Source: Acidipila sp. (GTDB lineage Bacteria > Acidobacteriota > Terriglobia > Acidiferrales > UBA7541). From it: 34,538 bases of DNA. Made by a program: the position numbers and the translations under genes. Below the pieces are notes generated by a model. That model did not search any database. It saw only the letters and a program-made list of their open reading frames with translations, and was not told the origin of the DNA. Position 1 is the first letter of the stretch. Each line of letters begins with the position of its first letter. Location of the stretch: assembly GCA_010365215.1 (NCBI GenBank), contig JAAFGT010000051.1, forward strand, positions 1-34,538, read 5' to 3'. Positions 13,893 to 17,754 of this stretch are shown here, piece by piece.

Positions 13893-14789
13893 GTGAAAAT
13901 AAAAACTTCGTTCATGGTGTGCATGATTCTCGGTGTTCTTGTGGCGGCCACTCCGAGCCGCGCCCAGACCCCGCAGGCTAAGGCCGACGCATTGCTGGCT
14001 GGCTCAAAATGGGCGGAAGCTGCCGCAGCGTATCGCCAGATACTCGACGTCAGCCCCAGTGATCCAGCGGCCTGGTCCGGCTTAGGCCAGGCGCTGCAGC
14101 AACTGAAACAGTACGACCAAGCCATCGCCGCCTACCAAAAGGCTCTCGATCTGCGCTTCCGGCCGGTGTTGCATAGCTATTTTATTGCTGACGCCTACGC
14201 GGCGAAGGGTGACCGTCAGAATACCTACGTGTGGCTAGATAAAGTAGCCGAACTGGGAGGTTCAGGAACCTTCCGGCAGATGGCGCTATCCGCGCCGGAA
14301 TTTGTTGCCATGGCTTCCGATCCAAAATTTACCGCCATCATGGAAAAAATGCGCCCGTGCACTGCGCCCGAATATCGCCAATTCGATTTCTGGCTGGGCG
14401 ACTGGGCGGTGGAGGCGCCGGCCGGCCAGCCTGCCGGAACCAACCTGGTCACCAGCGAGCAGAGCGGATGTTTGCTCATCGAACACTGGTCCTCGGCCGC
14501 GCCCGCCGCACAAACCGGCACCAGCTTCAATTTCTACGATCGCCGCGATAAAAAATGGCACCAGATCTACCTCGACAACTCCGGCAACATGGGCGCCTTT
14601 CCGCCGATGGCCGGCGAGTTCCGCGACGGTAAGATGGTGCTGCTTACCGACTCCGCCGCCACGCCCCTTTTTCGATGGACGTGGGCCCAAATCGCCCCCG
14701 GTAAAGTCACCCAGGTCGCCGAGCGGTCAACCGACGGCGGCAAAACCTGGATCGTCACCTGGGATTCCGTGTACATCAAAAAGAAGTAG
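13893..14789 (+). CDS. Secreted TPR protein with DUF1579-like C-terminal domain
   Basis: Exported protein of 298 residues with a signal peptide (MKIKTSFMVCMILGVLVAA, cleavage after SRAQ). About residues 28-100 hold two tetratricopeptide repeats (WAEAAAAYRQILDVSPSDPAAW, cut here to its core AYRQILDVSPSDP, and YDQAIAAYQKALDL). From about residue 160 a second domain starts with QFDFWLGDWAV, a motif like that opening DUF1579-type beta-barrel domains, ending near DGGKTWIVTWDSVYI. Nothing suggests a catalytic function; a periplasmic scaffold or lipid/small-molecule carrier is possible. The GTG start has AAGGAA at 13879-13884 as binding site. The gene is single, divergent from VPS10. Confidence 0.8.
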   Translation: MKIKTSFMVCMILGVLVAATPSRAQTPQAKADALLAGSKWAEAAAAYRQILDVSPSDPAAWSGLGQALQQLKQYDQAIAAYQKALDLRFRPVLHSYFIADAYAAKGDRQNTYVWLDKVAELGGSGTFRQMALSAPEFVAMASDPKFTAIMEKMRPCTAPEYRQFDFWLGDWAVEAPAGQPAGTNLVTSEQSGCLLIEHWSSAAPAAQTGTSFNFYDRRDKKWHQIYLDNSGNMGAFPPMAGEFRDGKMVLLTDSAATPLFRWTWAQIAPGKVTQVAERSTDGGKTWIVTWDSVYIKKK

Positions 14790-14845
14790 GGCATTAAGAC
14801 TAAAAGGGAAGTGCTAAGTCCGACGTCGGCCGCAGCGGAGGAAAT

Positions 14846-15415
14846 ATGAACGGCGGCATCATCGGGGTATCGGATCATGGCGGTTGGGCGGTGCTGGTGA
14901 CGGTGGGACGTGATGGGAAGCTGCTCGACCGCCGCCGGGTGGAACTCGTGGGCGAGGGCCTGCCAAAGATTCCGCACCACAGCGAAGGCCAGAGGCTGCC
15001 GACCAAGGAGGCCGTGGAGTTAGTAGAGCGCGTGCGCATGTCGGCGGAGAGGCATGCGGCGCTTGCCCTGGACGCTGTCCTGATAGCAGTGCCGCGTATC
15101 ATAGGTGTCGCCCTTCGCGAGTGCCCACAGCTTCCACCCACGATTGCCGAGCGCATCAAGGACTACCGTGCGCAGAACGTTGCCGACTGGGTGATGTACC
15201 GCAAGGCGGTGGCTACGGCGGCCGAGGCGCGGGGTTGGCCGGTCCACTGGTACAACGCAAAGAAGGTGTTTGATGCGGCCAGCCAGGCGCTGCGTGTAGA
15301 GAACCTTGACGCTCACTTCCTGCGGGTGCGGAAGGCCGTCGGGCCGCCCTGGAACATGGATCACAAGCTCGCGATGGCGGCGGCAATCGTCACGGCGAGC
15401 GCGGTTGTGGAGTAA
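14846..15415 (+). CDS. Unknown 189-residue protein, possibly RNase H-like fold
   Basis: I do not recognise this protein by name. It is soluble, with no signal peptide. It opens with a strand-rich region, GGIIGVSDHGGWAVLVTV then KLLDRRRVEL, which resembles the first hairpin of RNase H/RuvC-type folds with an Asp (D10) at the first catalytic place. A middle strand ends in DAVLIAV (D76), and the last helix reads MDHKLAMAAAI (D172), similar to the RuvC helix where an Asp precedes an Ala/Leu-rich run. Three spaced acidic residues on such elements would fit a two-metal nuclease, but this is inference. The middle helix contains ADWVMYRKAVATAAEA. GGAGG at 14837-14841 precedes the ATG. It follows the TPR gene by 56 bases and may share its message. 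Confidence 0.75.
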   Translation: MNGGIIGVSDHGGWAVLVTVGRDGKLLDRRRVELVGEGLPKIPHHSEGQRLPTKEAVELVERVRMSAERHAALALDAVLIAVPRIIGVALRECPQLPPTIAERIKDYRAQNVADWVMYRKAVATAAEARGWPVHWYNAKKVFDAASQALRVENLDAHFLRVRKAVGPPWNMDHKLAMAAAIVTASAVVE

Positions 15416-15416
15416 G

Positions 15417-15466
15417 CCGCAGTCTTCAGCCAAAACTCTGCCTCTCGACACTACGCGCGACTGCGG
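15417..15466 (+). terminator. Possible terminator after the 189-residue gene
   Basis: CCGCAGTC (15417-15424) and GACTGCGG (15459-15466) form a perfect 8-base inverted repeat directly after the stop codon, followed by TTTAAAA. The 34-base loop is long for an intrinsic terminator. Confidence 0.3.
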
Positions 15467-15690
15467 TTTAAAAGCCATTACGCGGCTCCTGGAAATTTCA
15501 GTAATTTCCGCGCCTTCCAGCCTCTCTCGCTGCCAACACCAGCAAAACGTGCAAAAACGAGGTACAGCAAAGTGGTTTGCCGTCTACATATTTCTCTGGA
15601 TGGCTGATTCCATGGCTCGCGTGTAGATTGTCTTTCGTACGATGCAGTCTCCAATACGCGCCAGAGCAAGAACTGGCGAGGAGGAAAGAA

Positions 15691-16896: not shown

Positions 16897-17754
16897 CTAC
16901 GCTTTTTTGGCGATTTTCTTTGCGTCCTTGGCAAGCGCAGGCACCGCGCGCACCGGCGGCTTCTTCGGCGCCGTGGCCGGCTTCTTTTCCAGGCTCTTTT
17001 TAAGCGCGGCCATCAGGTCGATGACCGGCGCGCGCGCGGGATGCGAGACCGCGGCCACATCCTTGCCTTCCTGTTTGGCGGCAATCAGCGCGCGCATGTT
17101 GTCGTTGTATTCATCGCGATACTTTTCCGGCTGGAATTTTGCCGCCAAAGTCTGAATCAGCTGCACGGCCAGCTTCTTTTCCGCGTCTTTTACCTCGATG
17201 TTTTCGTTCAGCCCGTATTCGGCCACGTCGCGTATCTCGCTCGGATAAAACATGGTGTGCAGGGTCATGCCGCCTTTGCGCCCGTTCTTGTGCGGGCGGA
17301 TGATCACGGTATGCTCCCGCTGGTGCATGGTGACCTTGGCAATGGCCGAGTAGCCGGAATCCTCCAGCGCGGTTTGCAGCAGAAAATAGGCTTTTTTCCC
17401 TTCCTCTTCGGGGGTCACGTAATACGACGCATCGAAATAGAGCATGTCGATTTCGCCCATCTTCACGAATTCGATGATCTCCATGGAGCGGCTGGAATCC
17501 GGCTCGATCTTGTCCAACTCCTCGTCGTTGAATAGCAGGTACTGATCCTTGTTGAATTCGTAGCCCTTCACAATTTCCGACCGCTCCACTTTACGGTCGC
17601 AGGTGGGGCAGAACAGCGGCATGCGAATACGCGTGTTGCAAACGCTGTGCAGTTGATTGAGCGAGATGCGTTCGCTGCGCGCGGCCGAGAACAGCCGGAT
17701 AGGAATGGAGAGCAGGCCAAAAGTCAGAAACCCCTTCCATACGGGAGTGGCCAT
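16897..17754 (-). CDS. ku: Bacterial Ku protein, non-homologous end joining
   Basis: Homodimeric ring protein that binds broken DNA ends and recruits the ligase LigD. The 285-residue length and the opening MATPVWKGFLTFGLLSIPIRL are typical. The core beta-barrel contains LNQLHSVCNTRI, a CPTC pair, and EIVKGYEFNKDQYLLF; the bridge region has EHTVIIRPHKNG. The C-terminal tail is Lys/Ala/Pro-rich (KKSLEKKPATAPKKPP and KDAKKIAKKA), the extended basic type that helps threading onto and retention on DNA. AGGAGA 7 bases ahead supports the ATG at 17754. LigD is not in this window, so the ligase must be encoded elsewhere. The next gene downstream is the MerR/TPR fusion. Confidence 0.97.
   Translation of the reverse strand: MATPVWKGFLTFGLLSIPIRLFSAARSERISLNQLHSVCNTRIRMPLFCPTCDRKVERSEIVKGYEFNKDQYLLFNDEELDKIEPDSSRSMEIIEFVKMGEIDMLYFDASYYVTPEEEGKKAYFLLQTALEDSGYSAIAKVTMHQREHTVIIRPHKNGRKGGMTLHTMFYPSEIRDVAEYGLNENIEVKDAEKKLAVQLIQTLAAKFQPEKYRDEYNDNMRALIAAKQEGKDVAAVSHPARAPVIDLMAALKKSLEKKPATAPKKPPVRAVPALAKDAKKIAKKA

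Follow-up and report, generated by a model that had tools for sequence, protein, structure and literature searches.

The gene at positions 14846-15415 (+, stop codon included) of the window, i.e. the whole stretch of 34,538 nucleotides of Acidipila sp. DNA analysed here (contig JAAFGT010000051.1), raises the question of what a RuvC-like fold is used for in a protein of 189 residues. The RNase H-like fold ranks among the most common scaffolds of nucleases, and a first-pass annotation of the sequence had proposed that this protein may adopt it and that three Asp residues, D10, D76 and D172, are placed like its catalytic acids. Here, we ask in turn whether the gene is real, whether the fold holds, whether the acids are those of RuvC and, finally, what the protein may do.

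An open reading frame under purifying selection

The open reading frame at 14846-15415 is a real gene under purifying selection, as argued by a ribosome-binding site, the selection itself and many homologues. A Shine-Dalgarno-like GGAGG, read off the sequence, is present at 14837-14841 (+) and its end is 4 bases from the ATG. In eight pairwise comparisons of the window gene with eight named relatives, dN/dS is 0.13-0.36; moreover, the differences from one relative (L031) fall 15/17/38 on the three codon positions over 189 codons, i.e. with an excess at the third, and GC by codon position is 0.73/0.45/0.79. The DNA is GC-rich and long antisense ORFs overlap the gene, raising the possibility that it is a chance ORF or an overlap artefact and that, for instance, the antisense ORF at 15020-15478 is the true gene. 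However, dN/dS values below 0.37, the codon-position patterns in differences and GC, and the confident structure model described below refute this idea, to which we attach practically no weight.

Predicted fold and structural matches

The AlphaFold2 model of the window protein (pLDDT 93.9, pTM 0.90) has RNase H topology. It was computed from an alignment of 16 sequences from the window's subfamily, i.e. the window protein and 15 of 21 named loci, and the remaining 15 share 64-85% identity with the query. Three strands are followed by a long helix, strand 4, helices, strand 5, further helices and the last helix (171-188). In a PDB fold search, all 12 matches at E<=0.001 are RuvC. The best structural alignment by VIA-align is to P. 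aeruginosa RuvC (Z 14.1, rmsd 3.9, 147 residues), and the eight bacterial RuvC entries, this one included, have Z of 12.8-14.1 over 141-151 residues (the other seven 12.8-13.8); phage RuvC (4ktw) has Z 10.8. The next structural tier, at Z about 11, consists of MOC1, IscB, TEFM, Spt6 and Cas12k. A viral library yields 36 matches at E<=0.001, 11 of which carry the name RuvC, resolvase or crossover-junction nuclease. Altogether, a RuvC/RNase H-like fold of the window protein is well supported by prediction, and on this point the first-pass annotation is borne out.

Proteins of other functions appear further down. The first ROK protein, at E 1.0e-3, directly follows the RuvC group, and EutJ and KEOPS proteins are lower in the same PDB fold search. 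The RuvC-like shape might have been turned to a small ligand or to another protein as partner, e.g. for binding nucleotides or for regulation, like the ROK/ASKHA relatives of the fold, and the conserved Arg/His/Lys residues described below would suit any phosphate. By contrast, the eight bacterial RuvC entries rank above the two Kae1 entries listed (Z 9.7-9.8), and the protein is a single domain of RuvC size, unlike ASKHA proteins, which have a two-domain form. We consider a ligand- or partner-binding role of this type unlikely.

Sequence kinship to RuvC

Profile comparisons point in the same direction as the structure, with a modest link. A profile of 42 family members aligns over residues 123-181 with the C-terminal part of a profile of 20 Acidobacteriota RuvC sequences (E 2.6e-4, probability 42%). 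The 42 members are the window protein and 41 of 51 loci, the excluded loci being a repeat of the window (L001), L024, L025 and the partial or broken L028, L029 and L046-L050; the RuvC profile was built from 20 of 30 loci and the RuvX profile used below from 24 of 25. A 98-member family profile scored 26.0 against RuvC (probability 14%). None of 200 column-shuffled RuvC profiles reached this score (mean 12.9); because the best of them scored 25.8, we regard the profile evidence as modest. For scale, the RuvC and RuvX profiles, which represent accepted relatives, scored 24.3 against each other. When the family was divided into three disjoint subfamilies of 12, 20 and 66 rows, the best RuvC alignment of each fell in the same C-terminal region, with scores of 19.2, 20.7 and 22.4, each of which is weak alone (P 0.032, 0.017 and 0.0084 for 12, 20 and 66 rows, respectively).

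In the profile alignments, the C-terminal helix aligns with the C-terminal helix of RuvC, in agreement with the resemblance that had been noted at first pass. D172 aligns with the first D of the DxxD motif in the last helix of RuvC and L175 with the second; D172 corresponds to D139 of the genome's own RuvC. At the N-terminus, a low-confidence global hhalign alignment anchored by a shared Gly places S9 on the first catalytic Asp of RuvC, and D10 sits one residue beyond this position.

The acid site of RuvC

Unless stated otherwise, residue counts refer to 97 distinct full-length homologues. These derive from 152 loci, from which 30 RuvC loci and two repeats of the window were removed to leave 120, all matching, and then nine partial sequences and 14 identical repeats.

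Strand 1 (residues 4-11; 14855-14878, +) carries S9, the variable D10 and the conserved H11. Position 9 is R in 49 homologues, S in 23, A in 11, K in 11, and W, T or V in one each, i.e. R or K in 60/97 and an acid in none; across columns 4-14, acids occur at column 10 only (30/97; Asp in 24 and Glu in six). Thus, the catalytic Asp that RuvC has at the end of strand 1 is absent family-wide (0/97). Similarly, strand 4 (residues 85-91; 15098-15118, +), where the Glu of RuvC is positioned, is without a conserved acid: acids number 0, 4, 0, 0, 0, 0, 1 and 8 of 98 in columns 85-92. Because no column exceeds 8/98, the exact register of strand 4 hardly matters, and the catalytic Glu expected at the end of this strand is absent. 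D76 lies within helix 53-81 of the model, off strand 4, and this position is Asp in 22/97 and Glu in 7/97.

The last helix differs in that D172 is Asp in 89/97. Resolvases are described, in the passages of Majorek et al. (2014, PMC3985635) drawn on here, as having a canonical Asp and an additional Asp three residues before it. D172 is thus the additional, accessory Asp, i.e. the first D of DxxD, and not the canonical one. The canonical second D is absent from the window protein, which has L175, and position 175 is Asp in 12/97 homologues. Both last-helix Asp residues are kept in 10 of the 12 rows of one subfamily as well as in L052 and L128. On this comparison of sequences, the RuvC acid site is largely dismantled across the family.

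What then of the three Asp residues? All are present in the window protein and D172 is conserved in the family, but neither D10 nor D76 is at an acid position of RuvC, and conservation, the criterion by which the first-pass annotation itself proposed to be judged, fails for these two (24/97 and 22/97). In the 16 close sequences, i.e. the window protein and 15 relatives, D10 and D172 are invariant and D76 is found in at least 90%, and it is because of this invariance that D10 had looked convincing. Judging from the alignment, the three-Asp pattern is a property of the window protein and its close relatives, not of the family. A canonical nuclease of the RNase H/RuvC type acting through D10, D76 and D172 would fit the fold, the conserved D172 and the pattern among close relatives; with both aspartates so variable in the family and with the catalytic positions of strands 1 and 4 lacking an acid, we consider it very improbable.

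Conserved residues in place of the acids

While the acids are mostly gone, the family is tightly conserved at other positions. G7 is found in all 97 homologues and H11 in 90. Strand 3 (residues 26-33; 14921-14944, +) carries R29 (92) and R31 (79), and it is followed by the loop motif P43-H44-H45 (14972-14980, +), which in the family mostly reads P-[YH]-H (P43 in 96/97 and H45 in 95/97). In helix 107-128 (15164-15229, +), residue 114 is Asp or Glu in 97/97 and R119 is found in 90. The motif G166-P-P-W169 and the last helix (15341-15409, +) contribute W169 (97), D172 and K174 (88, with Arg in six more). Position 11 is His, Lys or Arg in 97/97, with Lys or Arg in 7/97. In the resolvase clade, according to the part of the superfamily survey used here (PMC3985635), the sheet order is 32145 and the last helix is reversed. 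On this topology, strands 1 and 3 would be expected to end, and helix 2 and the last helix to begin, at one common edge of the sheet, the active edge of the RNase H fold, where the conserved residues would form one site.

Several deviations from the conserved set go together. All four rows with Cys29 have Lys11, both rows with Glu45 have His119 and Gln174, and the five rows in which 172 is Lys or Arg, all of one clade, share changes at positions 13 and 14. These linked deviations hint at coupling between the residues without proving it, and because each set falls within one clade they are a hint only.

In the region of strand 5 (133-136; 15242-15259, + with residues 137-138), acids are scarce in columns 130-136 (at most 12 of 98). 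By contrast, an acid is found just after the strand, at 137 or 138, in 86/97 homologues (28 at 137, 59 at 138, both in one). The window protein has Asn-Ala at these positions.

These patterns lend themselves to a reading in which the acid site has been rearranged. In this scenario, the protein would be a RuvC-fold enzyme, a new type of nuclease or phosphotransferase, with a novel metal or acid-base site made up of H11, D/E114, D172 and H45 and, in most members, the post-strand-5 acid. The conservation of all four residues speaks for it, as do the post-strand-5 acid and the linked changes (Cys29 with Lys11; Glu45 with His119 and Gln174). Moreover, D/E114 lies in helix 2, which is where 3'-5' exonucleases keep their second acid, and active-site migration is documented in the superfamily in the portion of Majorek et al. 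cited here (PMC3985635). On the other hand, Lys or Arg at 11 (7/97) and at 172 (5/97, one clade) would rarely be tolerated in a metal ligand, and residue 114 is seven residues, or two turns, into its helix in the model. The post-strand-5 acid alternates between two neighbouring positions, and each linked change is confined to one clade. The acid at 137 or 138 favours a rearranged site in much of the family, but not in the window protein, which lacks it. We view a rearranged site as the main alternative, held tentatively.

More doubtful, in our assessment, is a charge-inverted RuvC-fold enzyme that would act on nucleic acid through H11, H45, R29, R119, D/E114, D172 and K174, in a site using either no metal or a single one. 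In this reading, a basic residue has taken the place of the first catalytic Asp in most members (60/97 homologues). To our knowledge, such chemistry has not yet been described for the RuvC fold.

Distribution and descent

The family is patchy in Acidobacteriota. A single-sequence search found it in 29/297 genomes of the phylum, and the 42-sequence profile in 41/396 genomes of the phylum and 103/399 genomes of the class, with the window genome counted in each case. By their titles, all 21 named loci are from Acidobacteriota. The window genome also carries another, divergent member of the family, at the edge of a contig (G000:C67:8-523; L030, L133).

Outside the phylum, one homologue (L052; 33% identical) was found in Nonomuraea gerenzanensis (Actinomycetota). 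It keeps H11, R29, R31, P43, H45, the acid at 114, W169, D172 and K174, and has His at 119. The record that contains it (NZ_LT559118.1, 11.85 Mb) is classed with the plasmids, lists no more than 10 features and is probably a chromosome. It was the sole match of three queries to the plasmid set. Two queries against 50,697 phage records gave no match and no relative was found among viral contigs. With these searches empty and the only plasmid-set match probably chromosomal, we reject a phage or mobile origin.

The subfamily of the window protein comprises 21 rows from several bacterial families, and in the tree the window protein branches with members of other families, which suggests transfer between lineages. 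In addition, frame breaks, deletions or split matches were observed in L046, L048, L049, G379, G415, G642 and G516. Given these several broken or deleted copies, the gene seems dispensable in places.

Gene context

Matches to both RuvC and RuvX are present elsewhere in the genome, and the window protein is therefore not the resolvase. Directly upstream of the gene, a TPR protein gene (13893-14789, +) ends 56 bases before it; a shared transcript is possible. About 1.5 kb away on the other strand is a Ku gene (16900-17754, -; PF02735, E 1.1e-46), which adjoins a gene that encodes TPR repeats and matches MerR weakly. Ku is found in 78/103 family-positive and 156/296 other genomes of the class (Fisher p 4e-5, uncorrected for kinship and genome size), and among 62 sequences it is not recurrent as a neighbour. 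The co-occurrence is a lead only.

No neighbour is universal among these 62 sequences, which comprise the window, the Nonomuraea locus and 60 other loci taken with flanks of up to ~4 kb; L050 is without a gene call. A recA gene, recognised by eye, is a neighbour in seven loci (L113, L115, L119, L120, L123, L127 and L130), on the same strand and at a median of ~1.8 kb. A 3-hydroxyacyl-CoA dehydrogenase gene is near the family gene in six loci (by Pfam on one), and five of the seven recA loci also have it. Because all of these loci are in one 12-row clade, we attribute the recurrence to inherited gene order. No added domain was seen in the proteins themselves: 2/120 frames extend beyond the match by more than 60 residues and both are in broken or deleted copies, while long open stretches before the match look, by eye, like stop-free GC-rich DNA.

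A model for the function of the family

We suggest that the protein consists of one RuvC-fold domain, probably related distantly to RuvC, which has lost the two-metal site and binds nucleic acid without cutting it; we give this model a probability of roughly one half. By the structure prediction and the homologue alignments, the Asp of strand 1 has been replaced by Arg, Ser, Ala or Lys, the Glu of strand 4 is lost, and the canonical Asp of the last helix has gone in most members such that only the accessory Asp (D172) is kept. In their place, a different constellation, H11, R29, R31, H45, D/E114, R119, W169, D172 and K174, is conserved; going by fold topology, it would be located at the edge of the sheet where RNase H-like proteins hold the phosphate backbone. 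By analogy to Tex, Spt6 and TEFM, the protein may bind nucleic acid, perhaps branched or structured, without metal-dependent cutting, and the gene would be an accessory one beside the genome's own RuvC. Tex, Spt6 and TEFM use their resolvase-like domains for binding. Several observations weigh on the other side of this model: His, Arg and Asp/Glu conserved this tightly would be no less expected of an enzyme; an acid follows strand 5 in 86/97 homologues, near the relocated acid of Tex and YqgF; both last-helix Asp residues persist in most rows of one subfamily; the profile link to RuvC is modest; the structure model draws on 16 close sequences; and neither neighbours nor fusions point to nucleic acid.

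A standalone prokaryotic family in which the RuvC shape is kept while its metal-binding acids are swapped for conserved His, Arg and Lys would be a clear natural case in which to ask how a scaffold for cutting comes to be used for binding or for a different chemistry. The family supplies residues with which this can be tested, is carried by about a quarter of the class genomes searched and is without an entry in the libraries searched.

Comparison with known systems

In Pfam, NCBIfam, PHROGs, PADLOC and PDB sequences, we found no entry for the family, but only weak and scattered matches (best E 0.0017), with those of the window protein far under curated cut-offs. The best Pfam match is WH2_Lhr (E 0.0017), which is found in 9/42 members at E<=1; Cas12 models match one member each at E about 0.005, and these Cas12 matches are in keeping with a RuvC-like fold but prove nothing. 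Among the 22 Pfam families listed as matches of the 42 members at E<=1, neither RuvC (PF02075) nor RuvX/YqgF (PF03652) is included. Our literature search found no paper on this RuvC-fold family, a statement that applies to that search and not to print at large. We read this as an undescribed standalone family of RuvC-fold proteins that is in none of the libraries searched. The first-pass suggestion of an undescribed nuclease-like family thus stands for its first part; "nuclease-like" is true only of the shape. Equivalents of the strand-1 Asp and the strand-4 Glu of RuvC are missing.

RuvC itself (PF02075; 6lw3, 4ld0, 7w8d, 1hjr) shares with the family the fold of the whole domain, a C-terminal half in register and, at D172, the first of the two last-helix Asp residues, and in the low-confidence global alignment R119 of the window protein falls on the Arg of its VRG motif. 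The family differs from RuvC in having no PF02075 match, no strand-1 Asp, no strand-4 Glu and mostly no canonical helix Asp, and in having its own conserved set (H11/R29/H45/[DE]114/W169/K174). MOC1, a plant chloroplast resolvase (Z 10.9-11.7), IscB (9.8-11.4) and one Cas9 (10.5) have the RuvC fold in common with the window protein. MOC1 and the RuvC domains of IscB/Cas9 are active nucleases with the acid set, and we found no match in sequence between them and the family. DEDD-type 3'-5' exonucleases have a DxE motif in strand 1, which the family lacks, with R, S, A or K (W, T and V once each) at position 9 and His, Lys or Arg at position 11.

The Tex, Spt6 and TEFM resolvase-like domains, which are non-cutting relatives, match the window protein structurally at Z 9.9-11.3. 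In Spt6 and TEFM, the acid site of the RuvC-like domain is incomplete or shifted. The same is described for Tex in the passages of the superfamily survey cited here, where RuvX/YqgF is placed in the same clade as RuvC, the acid of Tex and YqgF is relocated to strand 5, and nuclease activity is reported as uncorroborated for either (PMC3985635). The acid found just after strand 5 in 86/97 homologues, though not in the window protein, is reminiscent of the relocated acid of RuvX/YqgF; by contrast, the family has no RuvX/YqgF match in Pfam, a weaker profile match to RuvX than to RuvC (16.7 vs 26.0) and no strand-1 acid. Finally, the resolvase-like domains of Tex, Spt6 and TEFM are parts of larger proteins, whereas the family described here consists of standalone proteins of ~190 residues with different conserved residues.
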